From assembly GCA_900322135.1 (NCBI GenBank), contig ONYP01000055.1, positions 1-47,558 on the forward strand: a DNA stretch of 47,558 bases, read 5' to 3'. Under the pieces are notes generated by a model. The model searched no databases, was not told the DNA's origin, and worked only from the letters and a program-made list of their open reading frames with translations. This DNA comes from an uncultured Prevotellaceae bacterium (lineage in GTDB: Bacteria > Bacteroidota > Bacteroidia > Bacteroidales > Muribaculaceae). Positions 310-15,720 of this stretch are shown here, in pieces. Positions within the stretch are counted from its first letter, which is position 1, and every line of letters begins with the position of its first letter. The translations under genes and the position numbers were made by a program.

Positions 310-603
310 TTACCTGTCGCGGCGTCCTTTCTCTAACTGCTTCTTGAGTGCGTCCACACAGTTGTCGATGGCTTCCTCGAAGGTGTCGGCCACCTTGTTG
401 GCGAAGAGGTCCTCGTTGCGCGGCACATTGAGGCGCACCGACGCCTCCTTGTTCATGGCTGTCTCGGGTTTCACTACCTTGAGAATCACCTCGGCGTTAG
501 AAATCTCCTCGTTGTACTTACCCAGTTTTTCGACTTTCTTGTTGATGAAGTCGTTGAGTTTCTCGGTTGCATCAAAGTGGATGGCATTGATTTTAATTTC
601 CAT
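310..603 (-). CDS. hpf: Ribosome hibernation promoting factor, short form
   Basis: A 97-residue HPF/YfiA-family protein. Short HPFs bind the 30S decoding site and help form inactive 100S dimers in stationary phase. The beta-alpha-beta-beta-beta-alpha pattern is visible: MEIKINAIHFDAT at the start, a basic helix (INKKVEKLGKY), then strands containing VILKVVKPE and ASVRLNVP, then a helix with the family-typical DTFEEAIDNCVDALKKQL. There is no C-terminal long-HPF extension. The start overlaps the last codons of xerC by 11 nt, so the two are cotranscribed. Unusually for this phylum, a perfect GGAGG lies 5 nt before the ATG. Identification is secure. Confidence 0.95.
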   Translation of the reverse strand: MEIKINAIHFDATEKLNDFINKKVEKLGKYNEEISNAEVILKVVKPETAMNKEASVRLNVPRNEDLFANKVADTFEEAIDNCVDALKKQLEKGRRDR

Positions 604-1504
604 AATAACCTCCTTTTTTTAGTGCCCTGGGATGGGCGAGTTCATAATTGTGTTGTAGTTCACTTAGTGTCACATGGGTGTAGACCTGGGTGGCCGCCAG
701 GCTCTCGTGACCGAGCAGCTCCTTGACGCTGTTGAGCTCGGCGCCATTGTTGAGCATCACGCTGGCAAAGGTGTGCCGCAGCACATGCGGGCTGAGTTTG
801 CCCGTTCCTCCGGCACCAGCCAGCGAGTCATGCACGACACGGTAGACAAGCGAGGCATACAGGGGCCGACCCTTGGCAGTGACCAGCAGGTTGCCGCACT
901 CGGCACCGACGCCGGCACGCAGCATGCGGTAACGGCCGATGAGCTGCGACAGCTCGCCACCGAAGGGAACGATGCGGTCCTTGTCGCGCTTGCCGTGCAC
1001 CTTGAGCTCGTGCTTGTCCTCATCGACGGCAGCATCCTGCAGCCCGATGAGCTCACTCAGGCGGATGCCCGTCTCGTAGAAAAGCATCACGATGAGCCGG
1101 TCCCTCACCTGGGTGAAGTCGTCCTGGTCGATGCCGGCATCAAGGATGGCATCGACAGTTTTTTCTCTAACAAATTTTGGCAGTGGTTTAGGCATCTTGG
1201 CAAGCTCGACCTGCGCCGCAGGATTAGACTTCGCCTCGCCTCGTCGCAACAGGTAGCGGTACAGCGACCTGATGGACTGCACCTTGTGGCGCAGGGTACC
1301 GGGGCAGTCGCCCATGGCAGAGCGCTCGATGAGCCACGCGCGGATGTCGTTGGCAGTGACCGTCGTCAAATCGGGCTCCAGCAAGCCTTTGGTCATGTAG
1401 TCCTGCCATTGTGCCAGATTGCGGCGGTACAGATCCACCGTTCTCCGGGACAGGTTGCGCTCATAGCGCAGGTATTGCAGGAAGCGTTCGACAATAGCGG
1501 TCAT
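593..1504 (-). CDS. xerC: Tyrosine recombinase XerC/XerD
   Basis: A 303-residue site-specific tyrosine recombinase, the size of Xer proteins that resolve chromosome dimers at dif. The N-terminal SAM-like DNA-binding domain (FLQYLRYERNLS) is followed by a catalytic domain with all key residues visible: Arg in ETGIRLSEL, Lys in HGKRDKDRIVP, His-x-x-Arg in SPHVLRHTFAS, His in LLGHESL, and the Tyr nucleophile in TQVYTHVT. The frame is open up to 1585, but a promoter at 1574-1605 would start transcription near 1567, and alignment of the family N-terminus favours the ATG at 1504 (or 1510). Its place beside rpsU and hpf is a conserved chromosomal context, so it is not a mobile-element integrase. XerC versus XerD cannot be settled from the sequence alone. 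Confidence 0.93.
   Translation of the reverse strand: MTAIVERFLQYLRYERNLSRRTVDLYRRNLAQWQDYMTKGLLEPDLTTVTANDIRAWLIERSAMGDCPGTLRHKVQSIRSLYRYLLRRGEAKSNPAAQVELAKMPKPLPKFVREKTVDAILDAGIDQDDFTQVRDRLIVMLFYETGIRLSELIGLQDAAVDEDKHELKVHGKRDKDRIVPFGGELSQLIGRYRMLRAGVGAECGNLLVTAKGRPLYASLVYRVVHDSLAGAGGTGKLSPHVLRHTFASVMLNNGAELNSVKELLGHESLAATQVYTHVTLSELQHNYELAHPRALKKGGYYGN
609..616 (-). promoter_or_regulatory. Strong Shine-Dalgarno of hpf
   Basis: On the minus strand AAAGGAGG ends 5 nt upstream of the hpf ATG (601-603) and lies just upstream of it within the xerC-hpf junction. Bacteroidota genes usually lack this element, and the other starts I inspected here (ychF, murF, gldL, gldM, rpsU) have none, so it is a notable exception. 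Confidence 0.85.
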
Positions 1505-1573
1505 AGGCATACAATTCGATGTGACACTCAGCAGCTCCGGCGGCATGGCGCCCGACGGGCTGCTTTGCGGTGC

Positions 1574-1605
1574 TAAAGTTAGCAACTATTTTTATCAATT
1601 GCAAA
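1574..1605 (-). promoter_or_regulatory. Promoter of xerC-hpf
   Basis: On the minus strand TTTG (1602-1605) is followed after 20 nt by TAACTTTA (1574-1581), one mismatch from the TAnnTTTG consensus. It lies between the rpsU terminator and xerC, and its expected start near 1567 rules out the upstream in-frame ATG at 1585. Confidence 0.6.
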
Positions 1606-1614
1606 TTTTAGGCC

Positions 1615-1654
1615 AAAAAAATGTCAGAAACCATCATTTCGACAGTTTCTGACA
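1615..1654 (-). terminator. Intrinsic terminator of rpsU
   Basis: A perfect 10-bp stem (1622-1631 with 1645-1654, arms TGTCAGAAAC/GTTTCTGACA) with a 13-nt loop is followed on the minus strand by seven T (1615-1621). It sits 34 nt after the rpsU stop and separates rpsU from xerC-hpf. Confidence 0.88.
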
Positions 1655-1687
1655 CAAAATAAGCTTATGATATCAACCGGTGAGCAA

Positions 1688-1879
1688 TTACTCCTCACGA
1701 GTGCGCAACTGCTGCACATACTCGGCCTTCATCATCTTCTTGCGGTTGATTACCGAAGGTTTCTCAAAAGCCTGACGGCTACGCAGTTCTTTAATGATAC
1801 CGGTCTTTTCGGTTTTACGCTTGAATTTCTTGAGGGCGCGTTCGATGTTGTCGCCTTCCTTAACGGGAACAATAATCAT
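1688..1879 (-). CDS. rpsU: 30S ribosomal protein bS21
   Basis: A 63-residue basic protein beginning MIIVPVKEGDNIERALKKF and ending in VQQLRTREE, a clear bS21. In Bacteroidota, bS21 with neighbouring proteins sequesters the 16S anti-Shine-Dalgarno on the 30S platform, which explains the phylum's SD-independent initiation. The frame extends upstream to 1981, but the extra 34 residues lie in the leader and do not resemble bS21, so the start at 1879 is chosen. There is no SD before this ATG; upstream is A-rich. The gene has its own promoter (2068-2098), a leader of about 185 nt with two hairpins, and its own terminator. Confidence 0.95.
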   Translation of the reverse strand: MIIVPVKEGDNIERALKKFKRKTEKTGIIKELRSRQAFEKPSVINRKKMMKAEYVQQLRTREE

Positions 1880-1961
1880 AATGAGTTTGCTTTGTTTTAA
1901 TTGTATTGTTTGTTTGTAAATTTTAAATTTCTTTGTCGTTTTGCGGCTCGATAGTGAAACC

Positions 1962-1993
1962 GCATCGCTGGCGAGCCACATGCCGAGCGATGC
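1962..1993 (-). promoter_or_regulatory. Hairpin in rpsU leader
   Basis: An 8-bp perfect stem (1962-1969 GCATCGCT with 1986-1993 AGCGATGC) is extended by GGC/GCC after a one-base bulge. It lies in the middle of the untranslated leader and has no T-run, so it is not a terminator. It could be a regulatory structure or just an mRNA-stability element. Confidence 0.55.
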
Positions 1994-2028
1994 AAAATCG
2001 GGTGATATGTATTGATTGTCAATATCTT

Positions 2029-2052
2029 AGGATAGGTTAACCAACCTCCTTT
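2029..2052 (-). promoter_or_regulatory. SD-like AAAGGAGG and hairpin at 5' end of rpsU mRNA
   Basis: About 10 nt after the predicted transcription start the minus strand reads AAAGGAGGTT (2043-2052), fully complementary to the 16S anti-SD core. It can fold with downstream sequence (AGGA-GGTT, loop GGTT, AACC-UA-UCCU; 2029-2050), which would hide the SD. No start codon lies at a usable distance; the rpsU ATG is about 165 nt away. A role in autoregulation by bS21 is my inference. Confidence 0.5.
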
Positions 2053-2067
2053 CGTTTTAAAGCGCGG

Positions 2068-2098
2068 CAAAGTTACACATAAAATCCTCCACGGACAA
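2068..2098 (-). promoter_or_regulatory. Promoter of rpsU
   Basis: The minus strand carries the -7 element TAACTTTG (2068-2075) and a -33 TTG (2096-2098) with a 20-nt spacer, a close match to the Bacteroidota consensus. Transcription would begin near 2061. Confidence 0.8.
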
Positions 2099-14341: not shown

Positions 14342-15720
14342 TTACTTTGGAAGCACTTCGTCTTCTGGCCCTTCAGGGTCAACAATAACCGGCATTCCCC
14401 ATTGGGATTGCAGCCAATCTATCTTGCTTTTCATGTACTGCTTAAACTGGTAGGCCTCCCAGTCAATCACACCCGTTCCTGACCACCGGATGGCATTGGC
14501 GGCATAGGCTTGACGGATGGCCTCGACATGGTCGTTAACAAACCGGTCGATGTCCAAACCATTGAAACCGGAAGCATAGAACTCGCGCCAGTGCCGCCTG
14601 ACGACAATTTGGAAATGCGGGAACTTGGCGATTTCCTCAATCCAGTGTGAATGGAAATAGGTGGGTTGCTGATAGAAGAAGTAGTCAAAGTCAGCCACTC
14701 CGGTATAAATCTTTCTCTGGAAGGCATTGCCAAAGTCCCACACCGGCCCGAAAATCAGTTTTTCATTATCCCCCCTGTGCTTGTACATGTAGCAACTGCC
14801 GGAGAAATATTCGGTATCATCCAGGATTTCGCCCACAATATAGAAACAAGCCAGGGAATCGATATCGATGTAGCGTTCCCACTCGGTGCTGACTTTGTTC
14901 TTGGTATAAATCGCAGTATTGGTTTTTTCCAGGAACTGCTGGATGTATTGATGCTGCTCGGCCGACAGCACTTCTCTTCATCGTTTTGCTCCTCGATGTT
15001 AACGCGATGCTTGCCCACGCGAATCTTTTCGGCAAGGAAATACAGACCGATGTACTGGCCGTTGAGAACGACCTCGACGGGTTTCTGCTCGGGTGTGTAA
15101 GCCATCCCGATGCGTCGGCTCAACTCAAAGCCCATGGCATTCTTGAGTTTGGCGTATTTATCATCGGCATGCGCCAACAGGCAGAAGTGACGGTTGCTGT
15201 CCATCCCCAGCAAGGGCTGTTTCTCGTCGAGTTTGATACGGAAGGGCTTTTTTCTCACCGTCCAGGTATAATTGCCACGGCCCTTGATTTGCATCCCCAA
15301 GGGATGCTCGGCCGACCCGAAGGATTCAACGCCCTCGATTCCCATGTTGTCAAGCCACCAGTCGGCATGCAGATACACTTCCTTGCTGTCGATGTTGTGG
15401 TACCCCTCGGTGTTGATATACATCACAGGCATGGTGCCCGAGAACGACGGCATGGGCGGCAGTTCGTGCCCGAGGACGGCATCCACGAGGAGGTTGATGT
15501 CGGCGATGTTGATTTCCTGGTCACCGTTGATGTCGGCGGCATAACTGTAGAACATGTGGTATTGCGCCCCCGACATGACCGAGTCGACCAGCGTGTTGAT
15601 ATCGGCAATCGTCACCTCCCAGTCGCAGTTCACATCACCACGCGGCCGCAACCCGCCCTGGGCCTGGGCTGCCAGTAGCGTGCCGAGAAGCAGTAGGATT
15701 GCGCTGAATAATCGTTTCAT
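14342..15720 (-). pseudogene. Dockerin-CotH-like protein, frameshifted
   Basis: Two overlapping frames make up one CotH-family gene. The first (15720 down to about 14980) has a signal peptide, two dockerin type I repeats (DVNCDWEVTIADIN, DINGDQEINIADIN) and the CotH N-terminal half (MQIKGRGNYTW, PFRIKLDEKQPLLG, LAHADDKYAKLKNAMGFELS, PVEVVLNGQYIGLYFLAEKI). After EEQNDEE the frame turns to nonsense. The second frame resumes at LSAEQHQYIQQFLEK and continues through FYIVGEILDD, GPVWDFGNAFQR and DWLQSQWG. The usual ITGGWLVEIDNY-like segment between the halves is missing from both frames, so the lesion is a deletion of about 40 codons plus a shift near 14970-14985. CotH proteins are kinase-fold proteins; this copy is probably inactive, or the assembly is wrong here. 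Confidence 0.85.

Follow-up and report, generated by a model that had tools for sequence, protein, structure and literature searches.

The rpsU-xer-hpf locus of an uncultured Prevotellaceae bacterium carries two Shine-Dalgarno (SD) sequences, although ribosomes of its order, Bacteroidales, normally keep the 16S rRNA tail hidden and disregard such signals. One stands at the ordinary position before hpf, the gene for a short ribosome hibernation-promoting factor (HPF), and the other, longer and stronger, lies far upstream of rpsU, the gene for ribosomal protein bS21, near the 5' end of the predicted rpsU mRNA. We analyzed the locus in a stretch of 47,558 nucleotides (contig ONYP01000055.1 of GenBank assembly GCA_900322135.1), here called the window, in which rpsU, a tyrosine recombinase open reading frame (ORF; xer), and hpf lie in this order, all on the minus strand. 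The hpf site is conserved throughout the order Bacteroidales. The rpsU leader SD is confined, within the searches made, to some genera of one family and to one other family, and the leader that carries it probably contains a pseudoknot. Both sites may serve ribosomal subunits that lack bS21.

The SD of hpf is conserved across Bacteroidales

In the window, the sequence AAAGGAGG (616..609) is followed by a 5-nt spacer (TTATT) and the hpf ATG (603..601). An earlier interpretation made from the letters alone (the sequence-only reading) had placed a GGAGG 5 nt before this ATG, and the site does pair with the 16S rRNA tail, at -13.4 kcal/mol (RNAduplex; row L275). All pairing energies were computed with RNAduplex using a single 16S tail sequence for every genome; the published screen with which they can be compared (PMC9976891) used another program. 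The tail, ACCUCCUUUCU, was taken from two other Bacteroidales genomes and not from the 16S rRNA of the window's own genome; it is identical in the 16S genes of both, with CCUCC intact.

Two sets of loci were compared. The close set holds 80 loci, the top-ranking ones among 564 rpsU relatives from named genomes, with a few records from the same or nearly identical genomes. The order set holds 110 of the 180 rpsU-matching genomes from an order-wide draw of 198, namely the 30 best and 80 more chosen mostly by rank, and includes the window's own locus (L081). The compared loci are related to one another, many of the genomes are metagenome-assembled, and the window's own genome is 82.55% complete.

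Within 20 nt before the hpf start, pairing of -9 kcal/mol or better was found in 85 of the 96 order-set loci that have an hpf start (GGAGG in 79), compared with 1 of 96 in a mock window 26 to 43 nt upstream; the remaining 11 of 96 have no SD of this strength. The close set has an hpf start in 50 of 80 loci, with pairing of -9 kcal/mol or better in 40 of the 50, GGAGG in 39, and mock pairing in 1 of 50. Beyond the order, an hpf SD is present in 12 of 25 genomes of the same class, all drawn from the best-ranking matches (mock, 0 of 25). GGAGG lies wholly past the xer stop codon in 34 of the 79 order-set cases (not so in 45), so coding constraint fails to explain the site. The possibility that genomes have the SD at either rpsU or hpf in alternation had looked suggestive and was not significant order-wide.

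The rpsR gene of the same genome also has a GGAGG before its likely start (-12.2 kcal/mol), and so, counted by eye, do 10 of the 13 genomes of the genus, this one included. Because the hpf site stands at an ordinary SD position and resembles that of rpsR in strength, use by ribosomes with an exposed anti-SD is its simplest reading, which would make hpf a second SD-dependent gene of the locus. For comparison, 37 ORFs of at least 100 amino acids (aa) were chosen mechanically from the window, a set in which some members are surely not genes and for which hpf and rpsU are too short; at their first ATGs, pairing of -11 kcal/mol or better was not found. The best first-ATG value is -10.4 (ORF 14755-15720), and two later in-frame ATGs reach -12.0 and -11.1. 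The sequence-only reading had likewise seen no GGAGG-type site at the other starts that it checked.

An extended SD stands near the predicted start of a long rpsU leader

The core AAAGGAGG recurs at 2052..2045 within an extended SD, GAAAGGAGGT (2053..2044), which forms 10 bp with the 16S tail at -17.0 kcal/mol (row L081); 164 nt separates this site from the rpsU ATG at 1879. Upstream lies TAACTTTG, a predicted promoter element of the Bacteroidetes consensus TAnnTTTG. Promoter and transcript start are predicted from this motif. The gap from the end of TAACTTTG to AAAGG is 15 nt, which makes the earlier placement of the site about 10 nt into the mRNA a fair prediction.

No extended SD was found at SD distance from the window's rpsU ATG, as the sequence-only reading had stated for this start. 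Start-adjacent pairing at rpsU reaches -13 kcal/mol or better in 4 of 110 order-set and 0 of 80 close-set loci; with a threshold of -9, the order-set count rises to 20 and the close-set count stays at 0. In the window's leader, no ATG, GTG, or TTG was seen by eye 4 to 12 nt after GGAGG; with no start codon at SD distance, the leader site should dock the 30S subunit and not start a protein. For the window's family we rejected, by eye, a translated ORF that would follow the leader SD, since the triplets preceding AAAGGAGG vary (ATG, TTG, CTG, GTG, ACG, or CCG) and the frames end differently.

The conservation of the leader site was measured with a promoter test free of any SD expression, in which a promoter counts as far when over 120 nt separate the nearest TAnnTTTG from the rpsU ATG. 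In the close set, a 16S complement of -13 kcal/mol or better lies within 35 nt past the promoter in 22 of 23 far-promoter loci (about -17 kcal/mol) and in 0 of 53 near-promoter loci. As controls, the 35 nt before the far promoters gave 0 of 23 and the next 35 nt gave 1. The corresponding order-set counts are 3 of 7 far-promoter loci (the window's locus is among the three) and 2 of 99 near-promoter loci, both with start-adjacent SDs; rpsU in this set mostly has a short leader, and 97 of the 99 near-promoter loci have no SD of -13 or better. Eight loci across the two sets were left out for lack of a usable promoter or of enough upstream sequence.

A profile of 24 leaders (R1) was searched against 297 genomes of the window's family and matched 122 of them at E <= 0.05, many of the matches being short and weak. 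Matches at E <= 3.5e-5 were obtained in 39 of 40 genomes of the window's genus (own included), and at E <= 1e-3 they extend to eight genera, the window's and seven more. Downstream of 49 of 50 matched loci lies rpsU, and the fiftieth locus stops at a contig edge; these 50 comprise the 30 top matches and 20 of the following 22, and include the own locus and repeats of profile-source sequences. Two of the 49 rpsU-preceding leaders are not captured by our search expression, L230 because of an extra base and L239 because it reads GGC in place of GGT, yet both can pair with the 16S tail; the remaining SD variation consists of A-to-G changes, tolerated as G-U pairs. In a second Bacteroidales family, all five drawn genomes have a promoter-proximal site 169 to 199 nt before rpsU, two of them with the ACATAT motif described below; three leaders of this family (L335, L336, and L182) have an ATG 4 nt after GGAGG, followed by a minimal ORF of three codons and a stop.

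Wider searches covered 393 genomes of the order. A second profile, R2, gave 13 matches at E <= 0.002, five before rpsU (the window's genome G000 and four of the second family, with G133 missed) and eight elsewhere. A promoter-plus-SD pattern matched 161 of the 393 genomes; these matches are probably mostly chance, because a reversed control also matched often. The sequence-only reading had proposed that conservation of both sites across Bacteroidales be checked. In close relatives both are kept, and the absence of GGAGG that it had named as a refutation was not seen; across the order, the hpf site proved general and extends to other orders, whereas the rpsU leader, within the searches made, was found in some genera of the window's family and in the second family.

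For alignments and structure tests we collected 76 leaders (67 distinct) with an expression that demanded the SD and mostly also a nearby promoter, a choice that in part predetermines their conservation. Leader length in relatives is 164 to 343 nt. In 65 of 67 leaders, the SD is preceded by a promoter-like element at a distance of up to 60 nt (the median is 15 nt, and five leaders have 29 to 52 nt), a count partly fixed by promoter closeness as a selection criterion for most of them, and six leaders have an additional TAnnTTTG between SD and ATG. Loci without a leader have TAnnTTTG within 200 nt of the ATG in 152 of 161 cases (median 48 nt).

The extended SD is also found elsewhere in the 3.1-Mb own genome, where GAAAGGRGGT occurs 9 times, compared with 3 for the reversed control. 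The other eight GAAAGGAGGT sites are on contigs C65, C69, and C112 (loci L246-L253), and seven of them stand at normal SD distance before ORFs of 43 to 251 aa. The genes behind these sites may be SD-using mobile or phage genes, or the contigs may be stray in the assembly.

The leader probably contains a pseudoknot

The sequence-only reading had set the rpsU site inside a hairpin, and AGGTT-GGTT-AACCT is present at 2047..2034. A 4-bp helix of this kind (GGTY with RRYY 3 to 11 nt later) can form in 50 of 65 distinct leaders, compared with a mean of 31 and a maximum of 43 over 300 shuffles. Covariation adds little, because swapping the variable bases among leaders still gives 47 of 65 on average. 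The site described earlier is real and forms part of a longer leader, which also contains a conserved ACATAT and the probable pseudoknot.

In 19 close relatives, stem 1 of the predicted pseudoknot reads GCATCGC/GCGRTGY and stem 2 reads GTGGCTC/GAGCCGC, with variants; stem 2 has two double changes in total, one each in L208 and L222. Paired cells make up 89.7% of these stems, compared with at most 41.7% when the structure is slid, the structure having been drawn on one of the same sequences. Outside the close relatives the arms differ and often still pair. When stem 2 was compared with shuffled downstream sequence, 24 of 56 leaders reached p <= 0.05 and 40 reached p <= 0.2, and a combined p value would be inflated by relatedness. 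A free pseudoknot search agrees with this test, with 32 of 66 leaders scoring above all 30 of their shuffles. No Rfam covariance model matched positions 1860-2120 at E values up to 5, and none reached its gathering score in the window. Transcription attenuation was rejected as a candidate: U-runs occur in some long leaders elsewhere and are absent, by eye, from the window's close relatives.

Features of the locus and related sites

The features are listed in Table 1. The best NCBIfam matches of xer are XerC and XerD, both under the cut-off. Residue 54 of the window's bS21 is Tyr, which PMC9976891 counts among the signature residues (same numbering assumed).

Table 1. Positions of predicted genes and leader elements in the rpsU-xer-hpf region of the window
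Feature	Position	Strand	Basis or remark
hpf, short ribosome hibernation-promoting factor, 97 aa	310..603	-	TIGR00741 above cut-off, PF02482
xer, tyrosine recombinase ORF, true start uncertain	593..1585	-	PF00589, PF02899; overlaps hpf by 11 nt
AAAGGAGG, SD of hpf, within last xer codons	609..616	-	Sequence; conserved order-wide
rpsU, ribosomal protein bS21, 63 aa, ATG at 1879	1688..1879	-	TIGR00030 above cut-off, PF01165
A-rich rpsU translation initiation region, no SD	1880..1941	-	Sequence
Predicted pseudoknot stem 2, 3' arm CGAGCCGCA	1942..1950	-	
Predicted pseudoknot stem 1, 3' arm GCGATGC	1962..1968	-	
Predicted pseudoknot stem 2, 5' arm TGTGGCTCG, inside stem 1 loop	1972..1980	-	
Predicted pseudoknot stem 1, 5' arm GCATCGC	1987..1993	-	
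Conserved motif ACATAT, about 35-50 nt after SD	2005..2010	-	Alignments A1, A3
Small hairpin AGGTT-GGTT-AACCT over SD	2034..2047	-	50/65 leaders vs shuffled mean 31
GAAAGGAGGT, extended SD near predicted rpsU mRNA 5' end	2044..2053	-	-17.0 kcal/mol with 16S tail
TAACTTTG, predicted promoter element	2068..2075	-	TAnnTTTG consensus

Related sites were encountered elsewhere in the order. In five loci (L162, L165, L166, L171, and L172), the rpsU ATG is preceded by the same sequence, GAAAGAGGTAT, which complements the anti-SD except for a bulge of one base (pairing between -10.1 and -10.6 kcal/mol). Locus L345 has, at about 1470-1600, a promoter-proximal AAGAGGAGGTT with a potential hairpin and ACATAT, before an ORF starting MSRICEITGKR that we take to be rpmB (bL28). 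Two genomes of another Bacteroidales family (L151 and L186) have the full extended SD directly before rpsU (-16.5 kcal/mol), and one of a third family (L152) has a near-complete one (-15.3). These three seem at odds with the statement, in PMC9976891, that no Bacteroidales members meet both rpsU criteria of its screen of start-codon-adjacent windows.

A leader that may sense ribosomes lacking bS21

In Flavobacterium johnsoniae, bS21, bS18, and bS6 hide the 16S tail, and ribosomes without bS21 prefer strong-SD mRNAs, thereby restoring bS21 (PMC9976891). The link to bS21 drawn in the sequence-only reading is grounded in this work; the window's bS21 has Tyr54, and the same genome has the rpsR SD reported for Bacteroidales. 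That low bS21 raises hpf or rpsU translation is an inference. With its 16S tail free, a 30S subunit without bS21 would bind the rpsU mRNA at the 5' SD and open the small hairpin. It would then stay on the leader, retained by the pseudoknot and the A-rich region, until it reached the SD-less rpsU start, so that in a bS21 shortage the leader would raise bS21 synthesis from a distance. The same subunits would favor hpf, and a shortage of bS21 would thereby raise the hibernation factor as well. To our knowledge, HPF is not part of the pocket that hides the anti-SD.

We give an even chance to this standby or sensor reading, in which the leader SD serves 30S subunits lacking bS21, bS21 synthesis rises when the protein is short, and hpf is favored alongside. 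It is preferred because no start codon lies at SD distance, because tisB of Escherichia coli offers a precedent, and because no RNase J match passed the cut-off in the genomes searched (see below). The reading predicts that the rpsU transcript starts 8 to 15 nt before GAAAGGAGG. More tentatively, we suggest that these leaders could form a new ribosome-sensing class, in which an extended SD at the extreme 5' end captures anti-SD-exposed ribosomes and a pseudoknot passes them to a start codon that has no SD and lies over 150 nt downstream; rpsU-xer-hpf would then be one bS21-responsive unit coupling 30S completion to hibernation.

Several results weigh against the standby or sensor reading. Docking at the window's leader SD cannot itself start a protein. 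Pair counts of the pseudoknot in close relatives are not above column shuffles, because so little varies, and the 24 leaders in which stem 2 reached p <= 0.05 comprise 15 close relatives of the window and 9 of the 41 others. Swapping arms among leaders separates poorly (own pairing exceeds the mean in 41 of 48 and ranks in the top tenth in 8 of 48), and RNAalifold found no consensus in the first 95 nt of the leaders. The bS21 leader circuit is not general, since the order set has the far-promoter SD in only 3 of 7 loci. Finally, the median hpf SD strength is -12.2 kcal/mol, and most sites are weaker than about -13, the rpsU threshold given in PMC9976891 and computed there with another program.

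Other explanations account for parts of these data. A 30S subunit at the 5' SD might guard the mRNA against decay, as at a STAB-SD, without feeding a start codon. The placement of the site close to the 5' end, with over 100 nt to the start codon and no initiation, is as in the STAB-SD described in PMC4113751, and such a function is compatible with any leader length, here 164 to 343 nt. It leaves the pseudoknot and ACATAT unexplained, however. In a search that covered RNase J only, 9 of 14 control genomes passed the cut-off of the model, whereas the 21 genomes searched (13 in the window's genus, its own among them, and 8 others) gave no match above it and weak partial matches in 13. We think a stabilizer unlikely. 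It is less probable still that the leader binds bS21, or bS6-bS18, directly and that the SD-like stretch belongs to a protein-binding structure. A long conserved leader with a probable pseudoknot ahead of a ribosomal protein gene does resemble other autoregulated leaders of such genes. Yet the conserved block complements the 16S tail, its variation preserves that pairing, and no conserved fold surrounds it beyond a hairpin of 4 to 5 bp.

For hpf, a serious rival, one that we nonetheless rate as doubtful, is that the SD merely aids coupled initiation after xer termination. The hpf start overlaps or lies less than 10 nt past the xer stop in 52 of 95 order-set cases, and SDs occur on other ribosomal genes of Bacteroidia (PMC9976891). 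SDs are nevertheless also present where hpf starts further from xer, and the 37 window ORFs, several of which lie in close rows, include no first ATG with pairing as strong as -11 kcal/mol. Chance or search bias, for which the SD-demanding and mostly promoter-demanding choice of leaders and the relatedness of the loci could speak, is very hard to reconcile with the SD-free promoter test (22 of 23 compared with 0 of 53) or the hpf mock window (1 of 96).

Comparison with known systems

Why Bacteroidota retain an intact, hidden anti-SD is an open question; the answer offered in print is that it serves to control bS21, and perhaps bS18. If the standby or sensor reading is true, the distant rpsU SD shows that screens limited to start codons miss such sites, and the order-wide hpf SD extends control by bS21-less ribosomes from ribosome assembly to hibernation. 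In searches of open-licence main texts and in passages of PMC9976891, PMC8710568, PMC10783764, PMC6847099, and PMC10931766, we found no published report of a distant rpsU SD, a structured Bacteroidales rpsU leader, or an hpf SD in this group, and the term hpf is absent from the main text of PMC9976891.

Among the closest known systems is rpsU autoregulation in F. johnsoniae, which shares an extended SD better than -13 kcal/mol on the bS21 mRNA, in a class whose anti-SD is hidden. There, however, the SD stands by the ATG in a native leader of 25 nt (PMC9976891), whereas the window's SD lies 164 nt upstream in a long leader and the locus has an SD at hpf as well. The STAB-SD of Bacillus cry3A likewise lies close to the mRNA 5' end, where it can bind 30S subunits without starting a protein. 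The window's leader site also starts no protein and, given the predicted mRNA start, has a similar position; three second-family leaders do have a nearby ATG. STAB-SD differs in stabilizing against RNase J (PMC4113751), for which the 21 genomes searched here gave no match over the cut-off.

The SD of Bacteroidales rpsR (Jha et al. 2021, cited in PMC9976891) resembles the hpf site as an SD on a gene of an SD-poor order and differs in that its product, bS18, belongs to the anti-SD-hiding pocket. For the leader, the tisB standby site of E. coli offers a parallel: there, 30S recruitment takes place some 100 nt ahead of the ribosome-binding site, and a pseudoknot is essential. tisB, a toxin mRNA, uses a single-stranded region and protein S1 instead of an SD, and its own ribosome-binding site is sequestered (PMC7708055).

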